From: Cokeromyces recurvatus
Lineage: Eukaryota; Mucoromycota; Mucoromycetes; Mucorales; Mucoraceae
Assembly: GCF_025118155.1 (NCBI RefSeq)
Contig: NW_026251390.1
Location: 992,001 to 1,056,000, forward strand
Direction: 5' to 3'
Length of the DNA stretch: 64,000 nt
Shown piece by piece: positions 24,356 through 60,743 of the stretch. The position numbers and the translations under genes were made by a program. The notes below the pieces were generated by a model. That model was not told where the DNA came from, did not search any database, and worked only from the letters and a program-made list of their open reading frames with translations. The stretch's first letter is position 1. Each line of letters begins with the position of its first letter.

Positions 24356-25752
24356 TTATAATAAATTGTCTTTAGATGATAAATATACATTTATGAAAAA
24401 AAAAAAAAGCAAATTGCATAATTCTTTAGCTTAAAGTAATATTATTAATTTAAACCAATAAGAAGTCATTTATTAGGAATACCATAATAGTAATGAGAGA
24501 AATTGTCATATGCATAAAGTCAAGCACTATTGGCATTTTGACTTTATCGTATACGCAGAATATAAGTTATCAAGTACTAGAGTCCGCTTTTAAAATAATA
24601 ATAATAGTAATAAAAAAGGTGTTATGTAAAATATAGATTCTTTGCTCAAATTGGTACTTATCCTTTCGTAACTCACTTCATTGTGTTAAGTCGTTCAAAC
24701 AAAGTTAGTTACTTTGGGAATAGACAAAACTTGATTGTGACAACTACTACTCTGCTTCTCTTGACATTGTAGTTTCTTTGTAGAACTCAAAATCTCTATT
24801 TAAATATTTACTTGAAACGTTCAATGAGTGGATCCTCAAAGAGAAGTATTAGCGGTGATGAGTAGTTGATTCTCAATAATATTAAAATAGCTGTTTGTGA
24901 TATAACTCAGAAACGAGTCTCTTTCAGGTCCTTTCTTAAAATCAAAATAGATAGCTATCAAGGTAAAGTAGTCAAAGTAATGTTTATCATACAACATACA
25001 AACCATTCATGAATGACTGTCTATATTATACCTAAAGGAATCATCATAGTAATGCATCTATTTTCCCTTGAGAGCATACAATAGCCCATGTTATTCGTGA
25101 TATACTGTTTGAACTTGATTACAAAAATACCTCCTGACACAGCATCAAATCTCTTTGTGTTGACGACTGATGACATAGTATCATCATTTACTAATATTAT
25201 TTTACTTATCTTCCTTCCTTTCCCTGTCATCATATTGAGCCGATCTGGAGAATACATTTCCATACTACATACTCTAATTTTTTCTTTTTCTTTTCTGTCT
25301 ACCAAATTATTCTACTTGAAAAGTACTGTATATATCATGATAATCTCCTAGCTTATGTAGTTCATTTTTTCAAGTTTTATTACTTTTTTTTTTTTGTACT
25401 GATTTTTCTTTCCTGTCATAAAAATCATTCATTTAATCAAAGTATAAACTACAGATATCTTTGGTATTTAACTACCATTTTACTAAGAAAAAGGAAGAGA
25501 GAGAGAGAGAAAGAAAGTAGGCATGTTCGTTTTACTTTACTAAGTTTTCATCACTATAACAAAAAAAAAAAAAAAAGACGATTAGACAGGATCACTACAT
25601 ACACCTCATAATAATAGCAATTAATATGAAGATGGTGTGTGTTTAGCTGATTTTAACTTTTTTTTTTTTAAAAAAAAAAAAGAATGGAAAGCATGGGATC
25701 CTCACATTATTCTTAAATATTCTTTACTTTAATACACCCTTATATTCATGGC
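24356..25752. other. Intergenic, promoters of two divergent genes
   Basis: 1.4 kb between the Atg38-like gene (-) and the PPR gene (+). It contains GA repeats near 25495-25520 and A/T runs near 25560 and 25665. Overlapping open frames on both strands at 25021-25350 lack any recognisable family and start or stop codon context, and I do not call them. Confidence 0.45.
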
Positions 25753-26763
25753 ATGCGGCATGTTCGCCTTCTTCATTTATTAACACCACACTTAACCCTT
25801 AAACGAAAGACCTTCACTCCATGTTTAGGTTGTGGTCGACCTATGTTTCTTTTCCAGTCCTATACCCAAGTAACTCCAACATCCACTACAACTTTACAGA
25901 AATATGCCCATTTACCCGCCAAAGCACGACCTGCCGAACCCTCTATTGCCATCACTAAGCTAGCAGCACGAGGAAGATTGGCGGATGCATTATCTGTCTA
26001 TCTTAAACTTTTAAAGGATGGCGGATTCCCTAGTCGAGAATCACTTTATCAGCTAACACTGGCCATGTATCAAAATTCAAATCTAACAGGCATGTACATC
26101 ATTCATCAAACTCTAACATCTTATTACAAACAAAATCCCATCATGTTATCTAAACGAAATGCACGATCCATGACTTACATGTACACAATGCTCATCAATC
26201 TTATTTCTAAACATTCTCGATCCGTCAACATGGACATCATACAACAGTTATGTAAAGAAATGCCTCAATTCACAAACAATGTTACTCTTCCACTGTATAA
26301 TACGTTAATCAAAATATTACTAAAAAAAAACTATGAGCAAGAGGCGTGGAAACTAGTTGAAGAATTACGTCGACAAAATATAGGGCCTAACATTGTTACA
26401 TATAATATTTTTATGAAACATGCCTATAAAAGAAAGAATTGGGAACGGTTCATACAACTATTGGATGAAATTAACCAAGATGAGAAGTTAGAGATCGATT
26501 GTATTACGACACATATTGTCGTGGATACGTTATGTAGCATGCATGCATTTGATAAAGCTTTTGATATAGTGGAAAAGTTATTTTGTCCTACTGTAAAAGA
26601 TAAATTCAATAGTTTAGAATTTAGATTAGATTTAATAAATCAAATAGAAAAAAAAAGAAGCTTAGCTCTACAAAACGCCGAAACATCAAAGAAAAAGAAA
26701 AGGAAAAAAGAAGAAGACGACGAAGAAAAAAAAAATCACCTTCTTAAAAATAAAATAAAATAA
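25753..26763 (+). CDS. Pentatricopeptide repeat (PPR) protein, probably mitochondrial
   Basis: Single-exon gene, 336 aa. The first 35 residues are Arg/His/Leu-rich without acids (MRHVRLLHLLTPHLTLKRK), as in a mitochondrial presequence. Helical-hairpin PPR units are visible: a degenerate one at about 70-105 (LAARGRLADALSVYLKLLKD), then at about 185-218 (PLYNTLIKILLKKNYEQEAW), 219-253 (IVTYNIFMKHAYKRKNWERF) and 254-288 (ITTHIVVDTLCSMHAFDKAF). PPR proteins bind organellar RNA in a sequence-specific way, so a role in mitochondrial RNA processing or translation is likely. The target is unknown. The protein ends in a Lys/Glu-rich tail encoded by A-rich DNA. It is shorter than most fungal PPR proteins. 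Confidence 0.85.
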   Translation: MRHVRLLHLLTPHLTLKRKTFTPCLGCGRPMFLFQSYTQVTPTSTTTLQKYAHLPAKARPAEPSIAITKLAARGRLADALSVYLKLLKDGGFPSRESLYQLTLAMYQNSNLTGMYIIHQTLTSYYKQNPIMLSKRNARSMTYMYTMLINLISKHSRSVNMDIIQQLCKEMPQFTNNVTLPLYNTLIKILLKKNYEQEAWKLVEELRRQNIGPNIVTYNIFMKHAYKRKNWERFIQLLDEINQDEKLEIDCITTHIVVDTLCSMHAFDKAFDIVEKLFCPTVKDKFNSLEFRLDLINQIEKKRSLALQNAETSKKKKRKKEEDDEEKKNHLLKNKIK

Positions 26764-27032
26764 ATAAACTTATTGTTTAAAAAGTAGAGCTTATTAAGTT
26801 AAAATATGTATCACATGATCAGAGGTTACTTATAATGATGAATAATAGAGAGAGAGTAAACTCTTACTACTATAAGAGACTTATTAAGCATTTATTATCC
26901 TTTATTAAGTTGTTATATGACCTGCTAAAATAAATCTTTGATTGCATCTAGTATGCTTTATTTAGAAGAAGAACAAAACAAGCCTTGATTACTAAGAAAG
27001 GAAGCATTCTTTTTCTTTTCTTTTTTTTTTTA

Positions 27033-27146
27033 GACCTCCGATTACAGTCGAAGAAACTAGGTTGGATCAATAAAAAAAATAAATTGGAACACCAATATGA
27101 AAATGGGACATTGGTATGAAAATAGTACACAGAAGGGAATATGGGA
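27033..27146 (+). repeat. Left terminal inverted repeat of the Fanzor element
   Basis: Begins GACCTCCGATTACAGTCGAA next to TA and runs inward to AAGGGAATATGGGA. It matches the reverse complement of 29191..29341 almost base for base over the outer 45 and inner 55 positions, but lacks a segment of about 40 bp present in the right copy. Confidence 0.85.
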
Positions 27147-27367
27147 CACGAATGAGAATATGGGACTATACTGAACAAATTTAAAGATTTTTTGCCTTGA
27201 TTTAAGGGTTGTAACCCTAAAAAAAAGCCAGCCTCTATAGTGCTCGTATCATTCTAGTACTTCATGATCTAATTGTCAAAGACAAAATTCATTTGTGTAT
27301 AATATAAGCTAGAATGCGAAAGTTGGCTGTATCAAGAACTTAGATATATAATCATGTATATGATCAA

Positions 27368-29126
27368 GTGCTTACACATTCCCAGTCATCCTCTATACCT
27401 AATGATATTCTTGCCCTTTTTGATCTGGATGTGGCCAATAATCTTCCAAGTTTCTTAAATCCTTTGATTTTAGAAGTGAAGAATCGCATGTCCAAGCTTC
27501 CAGTGTCTAAAGAAAGCTTAAACAATGAACCCTTCAAAAATCTATCCGCATTAAGGGCATATCCTTAAAAAATACGATGATATATACAAGGCCCAAACTC
27601 CTCAAAATGACAAAAGCGTTTTGATTAAGTCCCTACTTCCAAGACGTTTTAGTCTATTCCTAAATCCTGGATTGCACTAGCGATTCATAAAGATGGATGC
27701 TCAGAACCTAACCGGAATTTTCCCAGATGCTAAACAACAAAAGCAAGCTAATGAATCATCTCCTTTCGATCATAAACAAAGATGCTTCTATCAAATGTTT
27801 GACTTTAAGAAGCTGGGCATTCAAAGGTATACATTACTATTACATATATCTATAAATCAAGTTACTGACGAAAAAAAAAATATAGTTGTGAAAAGCTTCA
27901 AGCACTGCCTGAACAAAAAGGAAAGATGTTTCTCAATGGATTGTATACGAATGGCTACACGTGCAGAGTTCTATTTGCTAGAAAAGTGCTTCCGTCATCA
28001 CCAGAAGACAATATCTGTCTAGAGTTGAACGATTTTACAAGCGAAGAGGTGGACAGGTATTTCCGTCCATGTACTGTAGACCCAGGAAGACGGGGTCCTT
28101 TTGTCTCTTATCACGGTGGCACTGACATACATCGCTTGTCCTCAATCGAATATTACAATATGGGTGGAAGTGTAAGACGAATGAAAGAGCAACAGAAGCA
28201 TAAACAGAGACTAGGTATTGAAAAGATTGAAACAGACATTCCTTCGCCTAAAACTGTGTCGGTGGAACAATTTGTTTTGTATATAACTTACATGCTGTAG
28301 CACATGAATACTTTGCTTAATTTCTACAGCTTTGAAACTTCTAAGATTAAATGGTTGAACTACCTTAGTTCCCAAAAAGCCATCCAAGAAAGTGTCAACA
28401 TCTTATTAAATGGTGGAAAGAAGTATAATAAAAGCAGGAGAAAGAAGACAAAGGAAAACAGAAAAAAGAAGGAGGAAAATTCGCAAGCCTCGTACTGCTC
28501 AAGAAGAAAGAGTACTCACCACCATCCCAAAATCAGAAAGGTATACAATTTTTTTTTATTATTATTATTTCAGTAAACTCTAACTATTATATCTGTAACT
28601 TACAGCAGAAACAACAAAGTGTGTTTTGAAAAGGGAAACAGCAGCAAGATGCCTCTGGTGGTCTTTGGTGACGGACTAAAAAAAAACAAAGATCATAACA
28701 AGTTCAAAGGTCTCCGTCATGGCGTATCTAACAAAATATATCAACAATTAAAAACAAGACAAAGGCTTGGAGAACTCTTGCTATTAGACATCAACAAATT
28801 TAATACATCAAAGGTTATTAAGAAAAAAACAACACATAGTTTACGTATTGCACTTTCAGCTAAAACCAATCCTTTGTAGATCTGCAATTCTTGCTTTAAA
28901 AATGATATAGAAAATCTGAAGTGTAGGGAAGATGACCATGATCCATCAAGTATTGAAGTGTAAAACTTGCAATATCTTTTGGAATCGAGATGTAATGGCC
29001 AGCAAAAATATGTTTTACATAGCTCAGTCTATATGGAATGACAATGATCGCCCCACCGTCTTCAAACGACAAACCGCCACCACCATTATGGTTGTCTCGG
29101 CTCACTCCGGTGAGCCGACGACTTAA
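27368..29126 (+). pseudogene. Fanzor-type RNA-guided nuclease (TnpB homologue), broken
   Basis: Eukaryotic TnpB homologue (Fanzor). Recognisable blocks in order: MDAQNLTGIFPD at 27693, a 59-nt phase-2 intron (27827..27885), YFRPCTVDPGRRGPFVSYHG (RuvC-I, catalytic Asp in DPG), SSIEYYNMGGSVRRMKEQQ, a basic KSRRKKTKENRKKK stretch, PLVVFGDGL, GELLLLDINKFNTSKV, the zinc-ribbon pair CNSC and CKTC, and FWNRDVMASKNM (RuvC-III Asp). The order and motifs fit Fanzor1-type proteins of fungi. The copy is damaged: in-frame TAG at 27678-27680 and 28298-28300, a frame change near 27560, probably another near 28606, and one between the two Cys pairs (28880-28932). The N-terminal piece is 27368..27568. The frame ends at TAA 29124-29126. 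Confidence 0.8.
29094..29122 (+). ncRNA. GC-rich stem-loop at the 3' end of the Fanzor frame, candidate guide-RNA scaffold
   Basis: TCGGCTCAC (29097-29105) pairs perfectly with GTGAGCCGA (29110-29118) around a TCCG tetraloop. GTC/GAC extends the stem across one bulged C. It overlaps the last codons before the stop. In TnpB and Fanzor loci the omega/guide RNA comes from the 3' end of the gene and the adjoining element end, so the position fits. No transcription evidence exists here. Confidence 0.3.
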
Positions 29127-29190
29127 TGGTGTTACAGATAAGAAGTTGTAACAATTTTGATTTGACCAAACAAACTAAAGTATTTTAATT

Positions 29191-29340
29191 TCCCATATTC
29201 CCTTCTGTGTACTATTTTCGTACCAATGTCCCATTTTCATATTGGTATCCCAATTTTGCAACCCTGTCCTAATTTATTTTGGAAATGGCCAAAATTTTTT
29301 TTATTGACCCAGCTTAGTTTCTTCGACTATAATCTGAGGC

Positions 29341-29341
<1 letters not shown>
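29191..29341 (-). repeat. Right terminal inverted repeat of the Fanzor element
   Basis: Read from the outside on the minus strand it begins GGCCTCAGATTATAGTCGAA next to TA and ends AAGGGAATATGGGA, matching the left repeat. It contains about 40 bp (TTGGCCATTTCCAAAATAAA and the bases after it) that the left copy lacks. Confidence 0.85.
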
Positions 29342-29374
<33 letters not shown>

Positions 29375-29506
29375 CAAGTGGCTTTTTGTAAATTACCCAA
29401 TCATAGCTATTTGTGACTCTTCAAAAAAATTTTTGTATTTTTTGAAATAAAAAGTCGAGCAGAATATATTTCTTTTGTTTCCTTCTCTAATCATCATCTA
29501 TTAAAA

Positions 29507-30312
29507 ATGGAACATCAAGTATGTATCAAATAATCATTCATTAGCTATGTTTACTTAATTACTTACATATATTGTCTTCTTTATTAGACCGAAAGGGCCT
29601 TCCAAAAGCAAGCTGGTATTTTCCAAAACTCCAAGGATCTTAAGAAGCGTAACCAACGTTGGTACAAGGATGTTGGTTATGGTTTCCAAACCCCCAAGGA
29701 AGCCATCAACGGTACCTACATCGATAAGAAGTGTCCTTTTGTTGGTGAAGTCAACATTCAAGGTCGTATCCTTTCTGGTGTCGTTGTCTCTACCAAGATG
29801 AAGCGTACCCTTATCGTTCGTCGTGATTATCTTCACTATGTTCCCAAGTACAACCGTTACGAAAAGCGTCACAGAAACATCCCTGCTCATGTTTCTCCTG
29901 CTTTCGATAACTCTGCCATTGAAGTGTAAGTATTTTTAAAGAAAATATTCATCAACTATTGTTCGCTCAAATTTGGAAAACAAATGACTTTTTTGCCATC
30001 TTTTTCCTTTTTTTCGAAAGAAGATGACTTGTATTTATTATTATTTTTGTGCTATCATCATATTTCTCTCCTTTCTGTGAGAAGGGAAAAGGGTGCAAAA
30101 AGAGGAGTTTTTATTTTTGACGGACGAGGTAGTTGGTGAGGTAGCGGCTCAACCAAGCCTTTGACTCCATATATTAACTTTTCTTTCTTTATTTTTGTAG
30201 TGGTGATGTTGTTACCATTGGTCAATGTCGTCCTCTCTCTAAGACCGTTCGTTTCAACGTTATCAAGGTCACCAAGGCTAAGTCTGCCTCCAAGTCTTTC
30301 TCCAAGTTCTAA
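29507..30312 (+). CDS. RPS11: 40S ribosomal protein S11 (uS17)
   Basis: Small-subunit ribosomal protein uS17, 153 aa. Exons are 29507..29518 (only MEHQ), 29588..29925 and 30201..30312, all in phase. The protein has the expected TERAFQKQ start, [17 protein letters not shown], the uS17 core [20 protein letters not shown] and [15 protein letters not shown], and ends [19 protein letters not shown]...SFSKF. A first intron straight after the fourth codon is common in fungal ribosomal protein genes. The second intron (275 nt) is long for this window. Codon use is far less AT-biased than in neighbours, as expected for a highly expressed gene. A Fanzor transposon relic ends 165 bp upstream, so it borders or replaces part of the promoter. 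Confidence 0.97.
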
Positions 30313-30641
30313 GTTTATTAAAACTTAAATAAAACGAAAGCAATATTTTTTTTATATAATTATTTGTGTGCGTGTTCAATAAGAAGCACAAGATGAATTA
30401 CTTTATTTAAATTTAAACACTTAAAAATTTTCCCTTAATTTTATCTGACTTCATATTTTCTTGATTTCTTTCCCTTTTTTCCCTTTTTCCCCTCTTGACT
30501 AAAGTAAGTTTGTTACTTATGATTTGAACTAGAAGTCTTTTAATATTTCTCATTCAGAAAATTAAAAAAAAAAGGAATTAAACATACAAAGTATTACTTT
30601 TTTTTTCCTTTTTGATAAACTATTTCTTATTATCAGTATTA

Positions 30642-59397: not shown

Positions 59398-60743
59398 ATG
59401 AGTACATACTTTTTTTATGAAGATGGTCAGGGAAATATTTGTGATGAAAATGGGCGCGATGCGATGAAATACGAAGAAGAGATTAACCCCTTCCATCTAA
59501 AAACGTTAACTCGTCTTTGACTTTACTGCGAGAAGCAAAATACAGAGCAGAAGGACACTGAGATGGAAGCCTTAGATGCTGAGATGGAGGAGATTGCCAC
59601 TAACGTAAAGATCAATAGGGGTAGGAGCTATAACAACTACACCAATGATCAGAAACTGCTTTTTGTCTATTACAATAGGATTAGGTAGTTCAATGCTGCC
59701 AGATTTGGTAGATTAGCAGGCGGTGTTGTTGAAAGAACTGCACAGAAATGGGCTAGGAGACTGAAAGAGGATAAAGATTGGAATATCTTCGAAAAAAACA
59801 AACCAATAAAATCAATAAATTAGCAGGCCAGCTTGATGAGAAGCATAAGATTCACCTTTTAAATTTTTATGACAGTAATCCTCAAGCCAGGGTTGTGGAT
59901 GCAGTTTGTTCACTTACTGAAAAATTCAAATCATTCACACTGAAAGAATCAAGTGTGAGAAGTTTCCTCAAAACAGAATGCAACCTTTCATTCAAAAAAA
60001 AAATCACTCGTCATCCAGCTCCCAGAAACGATTCAACCAAAATTGCAAACCGCATAGCGTGGGGTTGAGAAGTGGAGCAAAACAGATATGGATTACCTTG
60101 AAAACTGTGTTTTTGTCGATGAATCAGCCTTCGATATTAACATGAGACCTCCAGGAGGATGGTCTATTAAGGGCACACCAGCTATTGTAATCACTCCTAC
60201 CATCAGAGCAGTATCACACACAGTTTTGGGTGCAATCTTGGCGAAGTATTTCGTGTCAATGGAACTTCGAAATCCTCAGGAACACATATTCAAAAGGCTA
60301 AAAATCGATTCTGGTAATCGCAAAAGAAAAGCACTATCAAAACCAAAGAAGTCTGCCTCCAAGGGAACTGTCACTGGCCATTATATGAATTTTATTCAGA
60401 AAACAATGCATGAAATGGATTGCATTCCGGAAATGAAAGGATATTATGTAGTTATTGATAATGCACCAATCCATACATCTAATGAGATTGATACTATGGT
60501 GACAGAGAGAGGATATAAGTGCATTTATCTCCCTCCTTATTCCCCTGAGCTTAATCCTATTCTATTGAGCAATTTTGGTCCATAGTTAAAAATAAGGTCA
60601 AACGTAGTCAATTTCAAACCAAAGAGGACTTATCAACAAGAATAACTGAGGCTTGCAATAATGTTCCTCCAGAACATCTTCGAGCATTTGTACAACATTC
60701 GGTAAACATATTTAAAGATTGCTTAAAAGGCAATCCTATCTAA
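59398..60743 (+). pseudogene. Tc1/mariner-type transposase, DD34E, broken
   Basis: Relic of a Tc1-like transposase, better preserved than the copy at 13 kb. It starts MSTYFFYEDGQGN and continues through the helix-turn-helix part (FGRLAGGVVERTAQKWARRL, then HLLNFYDSNPQAR). The catalytic core follows: first Asp in CVFVDESAFDINM, second Asp in YVVIDNAPIHTS, then CIYLPPYSPELNPI and the third acid in EQFWSIVKNKVKR, 34 residues after the second (DD34E). Lesions: stops near 59517 and 59683, a frame change near 59795, one extra base near 60065 and a 5-bp tandem duplication (CTATT) at about 60565 directly before the catalytic Glu. The frame ends at TAA 60741-60743. Confidence 0.88.

Follow-up and report, generated by a model that had tools for sequence, protein, structure and literature searches.

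A degenerate Fanzor1 element in Cokeromyces recurvatus whose sister copies carry traces expected of RNA-guided enzymes

Introduction

In eukaryotes, Fanzors are the counterparts of those proteins from which Cas12 descends. Fanzor1 proteins are known from TA-flanked elements that carry a Fanzor only, and from Mucor, Rhizopus and Phycomyces (PMC3627910, accessible part). For Spizellomyces punctatus, Fanzor-less ghost elements and a flank-matching motif are known (PMC10432273, accessible part). An earlier note on a 64,000-nucleotide stretch of the Cokeromyces recurvatus genome (contig NW_026251390.1, positions 992,001 to 1,056,000; in the following, the window) had described a broken Fanzor-like gene inside a compact inverted-repeat element. 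What is this element, and do its relatives bear marks of an RNA-guided nuclease? We consider it probable that the window holds a Fanzor1 transposon copy that is dead and has suffered an internal deletion, and that working relatives carry out RNA-guided cutting at empty sites adjacent to TTA or ATTA. The comparison genome was the same 28.05-Mb assembly.

Results

Boundaries and type of the element

The element boundaries were set by alignment against other copies, which end in TA followed by CAGTCGAAG. This placed the degenerate, Fanzor1-carrying element at 27045..29329 on the + strand (2,285 bp), flanked by TA target-site duplications at 27043..27044 and 29330..29331. GAT precedes the left TA and the left junction reads ATTA/CAGTC. 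The right terminus is CTA in the window copy and CTG in the other near copies that have a right end. The left terminal inverted repeat covers 27045..27146 (+ strand), the right one 29191..29329 (- strand), made longer by an insertion. The inverted repeat of the earlier note is real and consists of two arm pairs, 27007-27080/29294-29367 at 88% and 27081-27146/29191-29256 at 95%. The interval given there, 27033..29341, does contain the element; its outer 10-12 bp or so are host flank, which happens to be palindromic. Ten of the last 12 flank bases match from side to side (mismatched pairs: mean 3.9, maximum 9). A repeated palindromic target as the source of these flanks was discarded, as an idealised 24-mer was without a genome match within 3 mismatches. 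No transposase frame was seen inside the element, in agreement with the earlier note. On testing, both a TA target-site duplication and inverted termini were found, and the element is of the non-autonomous Tc1/mariner type.

A gene for the ribosomal protein uS17 (Pfam S17 N-terminal and S17) lies at 29505-30313. It appears to start about 175 bp past the right end, which places the element upstream of it. On the other side a frame with PPR repeats is located at 25717-26760.

Remnants of the Fanzor gene

Judged by its reading frames, the gene is a degenerate Fanzor1 gene, and the copy is dead and internally deleted. The motifs previously named were all located on the + strand: TVDPGRRGPFVSYHG of RuvC-I at 28073-28117, FGDGL in the frame starting at 28577, the zinc ribbon pairs CNSC at 28883-28894 and CKTC at 28959-28970, and FWNRDVMASKNM of RuvC-III at 28977-29012. 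The frames are indeed interrupted; the earlier note had missed that roughly 1.2 kb of 5' coding sequence is gone. With copy L012 as reference this is a 1,219-bp internal deletion with its junction at 27302..27303 and TATAA on either side. It takes out the part coding for about residues 1-290 of homologue P0001. L012 itself gave no match when it was scanned for a start-codon string. The lost N-terminal part contains a zinc-knuckle-like C-X2-C...GH...C cluster (KCSSCQEEGHNSARS..C), which is seen in full copies such as L012 and L015 and in homologues P0001, P0007 and P0013.

The remaining Fanzor remnants are all on the + strand. The first, 27344..27680, comprises the overlapping frames 27344-27565 and 27555-27680 with a frameshift between them. 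A stop separates it from the next, 27681..27827 (RFIKMDAQNL...GIQR), recognized by alignment with homologues. RuvC-I with its DPG (Asp codon 28079-28081) is in 27881..28300, which terminates with a stop at 28298-28300. A basic region, 28301..28540, is followed by a putative intron, 28541-28605, with the splice-like ends GT...TTACAG (TTACAG at 28600-28605). The FGDGL remnant, 28606..28813, precedes a second putative intron, 28814-28879. In this remnant a Lys codon (28796-28798) occupies the position of E541 in SpuFz1, the Fanzor of S. punctatus, where the homologues have Glu. Because Lys replaces the catalytic Glu, the window copy should be inactive and a family member by descent. The last remnant, 28880..29126, contains the CNSC/CKTC zinc ribbon, WNRD of RuvC-III (Asp 28989-28991) and the C-terminus; it has one internal frame break and a stop at 29124-29126.

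Family assignment

Of 7999 candidates scored against the conceptual read-through protein, 53 were relatives at E<=0.001, and several of these possess a Cas12f1-like TNB domain. Named relatives are from Mucor, Rhizopus, Cokeromyces, Backusella, Gilbertella, Mycotypha, Benjaminiella and Rhizomucor, all of which we take to be Mucorales. The earlier note had named two outcomes that would speak against the Fanzor assignment, a better match to a non-TnpB family and an absence of Fanzor relatives in related Mucoromycota. Neither occurred, and this supports membership.

A profile check pointed the same way. With a profile of 11 relatives SpuFz1 was found among the PDB sequences at E=1e-17; the next match had E=0.16. 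By sequence, therefore, the solved structure closest to the homologue profile is a Fanzor. The RuvC piece of the window alone yielded SpuFz1 as its single PDB match (E=0.33). The last exon alone scored 17.9 bits against TNB (Pfam), below the cut-off of 26.3. This cut-off was exceeded by three of five homologues tested; P0001 was without any Pfam match. Other Pfam matches of the five up to E=0.1 were Maf1 in P0005 and ThiC and UPF0738 in P0027, all below cut-off and far weaker than TNB on the same proteins.

The Fanzor/TnpB motif of Bao and Jurka, D-X(125,275)-[TS][TS]XX-C4-X(5,50)-RD (PMC3627910, accessible part), is present in the read-through protein with a spacer of 199 and 5 residues from the zinc pair to RD. 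The DPG in RuvC-I, a Fanzor1 signature (PMC10711439, accessible part), is found in TVDPGR at 28073-28090. In SpuFz1, metal is coordinated by E541, D383, N385 and D606 (PMC10432273, accessible part). Once an offset of 394 is applied to the printed chain numbering, D383, E541 and D606 align with the DPG, INEFKTSK and WNRD motifs found in the homologues. The catalytic D-E-D set with the alternative Glu is present in the family, i.e. in the homologues, but not in the window copy. At the position of N385 the window copy has Gly, and homologues P0027 and P0028 have Asn.

Copies and related elements in the genome

A DNA search, the counts of which are lower bounds, identified 12 other near copies, 88-94% identical across more than 1 kb, together with fragments and with remoter relatives at 65-77% identity. 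Intact paralogues with the same repeats had been suggested as a check. None of the 13 near copies, the window copy included, has an intact reading; each needs more than one frame to follow P0001, with the reservation that introns and lesions are counted together in these frame changes and that introns account for a part. L009 and L010 are without the same protein part as the window copy, L009 through a different deletion.

The left-end pattern matched 82 places at up to 3 mismatches, a reversed control none. Many of these matches lie beside Fanzors of a second, distant clade. Its TNB domain is strong, and parts of its protein are 24% and 36% identical to the first clade in the regions aligned. 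Short Fanzor-less elements, L058 (116 bp) and L059 (329 bp), share the ends, and further Fanzors reside between a different kind of repeat that starts with TACAGTTTTTACACTTC. In the second-clade element L046 (C64:715314-718759) the two flanks mirror each other without a mismatch for 100 nt or more; either the element inserted into the middle of a long palindrome, or the flank was duplicated in inverted orientation.

The genome contains 70 TNB domain matches, 60 of them above the curated cut-off, and at least 184 DDE_3 transposase matches in addition to one DDE_1. Several DDE_3 matches have identical scores and open frames of 450-461 amino acids, which suggests recently active Tc1 elements. The window itself has a Tc1-type DDE_3 fragment at 60385-60561 (+ strand, 47 bits). 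Among the DDE_3 matches listed, a part of the at least 184, no autonomous partner located between paired ends was seen by eye. A candidate partner was considered on C31, where transposase-like frames lie 1.5-3.4 kb inward of one end; the similarity to the Fanzor element stops before these frames, and no opposite end was found there.

Left flanks differ from right flanks

Ends were taken from 79 of the 82 pattern matches, which were fetched, plus one at 4 mismatches. Left and right were assigned by the Fanzor strand or by similarity to ends already known as left or right, with a margin of at least 50 bits. Among the assigned ends, T precedes TA in 27/28 on the left and in 15/28 on the right (Fisher p=4e-4); for AT the figures are 21/28 and 7/28 (Fisher p=4e-4). 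The two flanks of L046 are identical over 100 nt; when its right end is removed, the p values are 1.4e-4 (T) and 1.3e-4 (AT). In the 19 elements with both ends, T was present only at the left in nine and only at the right in none. As a background, 33% of the TA dinucleotides in the window are preceded by T, and right ends are mildly enriched over this value (15/28, p=0.026). A part of the bias may therefore come from the transposase. The 24 ends which could not be assigned were left out of the test; by eye, T was present in 16 and AT in 10 of these, among which L024/L025 and L065/L068 have the same flanks and hence are not independent.

Each clade taken alone had the T bias, the first with 8/9 left versus 4/12 right ends (p=0.024), the second with 13/13 versus 10/15 (p=0.044). 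AT was not significant in the second clade alone (9/13 left versus 5/15 right, p=0.13). In S. punctatus the dinucleotide in front of the left repeat is a conserved CA, and CATA was measured as the motif (PMC10432273, accessible part). By the same logic, the left-flank bias suggests TTA or ATTA as the target-adjacent motif to be expected here.

A stem-loop and a conserved 11-mer at the 3' end

The window 3' region 29088-29331 folds with z=-4.2. From this fold, and by analogy to SpuFz1 (PMC10432273, accessible part), 29084..29331 (+ strand) would be expected to encode the scaffold of an omega-RNA, the guide of which would be read from host DNA beyond 29331. Distant paralogues align to 28622-29146 of the window, that is to the last coding stretch and about 20 nt past the stop. 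A partly covarying stem-loop at 29094..29122 (+ strand), which overlaps the end of the reading frame, is a candidate for the first stem-loop of such an RNA.

Covariation was tested with 16 sequences, 500 shuffles and the 12-pair stem-loop taken from the window. Paired cells amounted to 88% of 192, compared with 79% in shuffles; doubly changed cells numbered 21 versus 9.1, and the covariation score was 0.349 versus 0.202. None of the 500 shuffles reached any of these values. Not clearly above shuffles were the pairs changed on both sides (5 versus a mean of 4.1, reached by 184/500) and the further pair types (13 versus 11.6, reached by 86/500). Versions of the stem-loop that were slid along the alignment had at most 45% paired and 10 doubly changed cells, a comparison which favours the tested structure because it was derived from the window, one of the sequences. 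RNAalifold placed nine pairs at the site. When 35 upstream stretches were folded, 10 had z<=-2 versus simple shuffles, and in several (e.g. L010, L039, L040, L041, L085) the stem is not part of the minimum-energy fold. The second clade has a different stem in the same place (TGTCTTG/CAAGACA and variants), intact in the folds of six of eight copies. Rfam had no match in 26900-29500 at E<=1.

Directly 3' of the stem-loop is the 11-mer TTACAGGTAAG, which in the window is mutated to TTACAGATAAG (29132..29142, + strand). The genome contains 79 exact copies, and 21 of a reversed control. Behind 21 of the 70 TNB matches it occurs 114-194 nt downstream on the same strand, where about 0.1 were expected; the opposite strand had none in the first 1 kb downstream, and the same strand had none upstream. 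The exact 11-mer is absent behind the other 49. The looser pattern TTWCAGGTAA matched 435 places, its reversed control 222; these matches do not enter the counts given here. In the Fanzor literature covered by a limited search we found no mention of this signature, which is no proof that it is undescribed.

Read as sequence, the TTACAG half equals the left junction (TTA plus CAG), and TACAG is complementary to the right terminus CTGTA. Such a pairing resembles what the scaffold of a guide RNA might do. Whether the GTAAG half could likewise pair with the right repeat was examined by hand, and the idea was dropped: such pairing extends in the window family and fails with the other kind of repeat (TACAGTTTTTACAC...).

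Discussion

The most probable reading of these data is a dead copy with working relatives that use guide RNAs. The vehicle would be an element of Tc1/mariner type which, because it has no transposase of its own, presumably is moved in trans. In working relatives the Fanzor would bind an RNA derived from the right repeat together with the 3' end of the Fanzor gene itself. This RNA would begin at the 3' stem-loop, cross the right repeat and obtain its last part from host DNA past the right end. The nuclease would then cut flank-matching DNA beside TTA or ATTA, i.e. an unoccupied insertion site or an element-free allele, and repair would copy the element back. Observed are the anatomy of the element, its Fanzor homology and decay, the preference on the left flank and a conserved 3' motif behind a stem-loop; that the RNA is made, that DNA is cut and that the element profits is inferred. 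Activity of this family in the C. recurvatus genome is unproven because no intact copy was found among the 13 near copies.

Alternatively, the element might be a plain non-autonomous Tc1/mariner passenger with the Fanzor as a roleless cargo, the left bias then reflecting an asymmetric target preference of the transposase. The Fanzor-less elements with the same ends (L058, L059), the abundance of DDE_3 matches and the T excess which right ends carry to some extent would all agree with this. Yet a transposase that treats both ends alike should leave mirror-image flanks, and the flanks differ. Further, the 3' motif was kept behind Fanzor clades which are only 24-36% identical in the parts compared. 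We consider a mere passenger improbable. That the protein is TnpB or belongs to another RuvC family instead of Fanzor1 is extremely improbable. The zinc region of the homologues does give weak matches to NCBIfam TnpB models (22.5 bits at best, cut-off 100), against which stand SpuFz1 as the best solved relative (E=1e-17, next match 0.16) and the presence of DPG and the Fanzor/TnpB motif in the sequence.

The 3' motif poses a separate question. TTACAGGTAAG might be just a splice-site pair of the Fanzor pre-mRNA, belonging to an intron in the 3' UTR, and have no part in a guide RNA. CAG/GTAAG looks like a strong 5' splice site, TTACAG is also the end of a putative intron inside the gene, and in the second clade a GTAAG overlaps an apparent stop codon upstream of the motif, so that an intron between them is conceivable. 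Against this, the two halves of the 11-mer are conserved jointly, and in the window family the motif starts only 5 nt after the stop codon. On balance, a pure splicing role is on the unlikely side.

Returning to guide RNAs, a more specific version is offered tentatively, and we rate it as rather unlikely. The guide RNA of the Fanzors of this genome may have a common core, consisting of the stem-loop, a TTACAG that copies the left junction and pairs with the right terminus CTGTA, and, fused to it, a GTAAG of perfect 5' splice-site form for host splicing or U1 snRNP. Their action would either join this core to the right end and remove the approximately 100-200 nt between, or suppress premature 3'-end processing, and transcription would then read into the host and yield the guide. 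If true, transposon guide RNAs would here be made by a route specific to eukaryotes.

How does the element compare with known systems, as far as the accessible parts of the sources describe them? Like SPu-1/SpuFz1 of Spizellomyces punctatus (PMC3627910, PMC10432273), it is a compact TA-flanked inverted-repeat element with Fanzor1 only. As with the ghost elements there, short Fanzor-less relatives exist (PMC10432273). A dinucleotide before the left repeat is conserved in both, CA in S. punctatus and mostly AT before TA here, and the 3' RNA region that runs into the right repeat of SpuFz1 has a putative counterpart here (PMC10432273). Differences are the repeat length (about 100-140 bp here, 30-33 in SPu-1), the frames split by putative introns and the N-terminal C-X2-C...H...C cluster of the homologues. 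S. punctatus also keeps intact copies, whereas none of the 13 near copies is intact here. Fanzor1 in Mariner elements of the PUl-4 type (PMC3627910) likewise comes as Fanzor only, with Mariner-type repeats and TA duplications; the host differs, and here no autonomous transposon with the same ends is among the DDE_3 matches listed. PpFz1 from Parasitella parasitica (PMC11423790) is a Fanzor1 of Mucorales with an AT-containing target-adjacent motif, 5'-ATN. It gave no match up to E=1 in the profile search of PDB sequences, and thus is more distant or not detectably present. MCi and ROr from the related hosts Mucor circinelloides and Rhizopus oryzae include multi-copy Fanzor1 elements in M. circinelloides, and differ by 9-bp duplications (MuDr type) or, in what the source describes, by having no clear repeats (PMC3627910).

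To the known Fanzors of Mucorales and of TA-flanked elements, the present analysis adds detail: a large array, an inferred motif and a 3' signature. The C. recurvatus genome harbours many Fanzor loci, at least two distant clades with one set of ends, and Fanzor-less companions. This combination leads to testable predictions, namely a TTA or ATTA motif, a 3' RNA core and copying into empty sites. The copy in the window is dead; its sister copies show the traces expected of RNA-guided enzymes.
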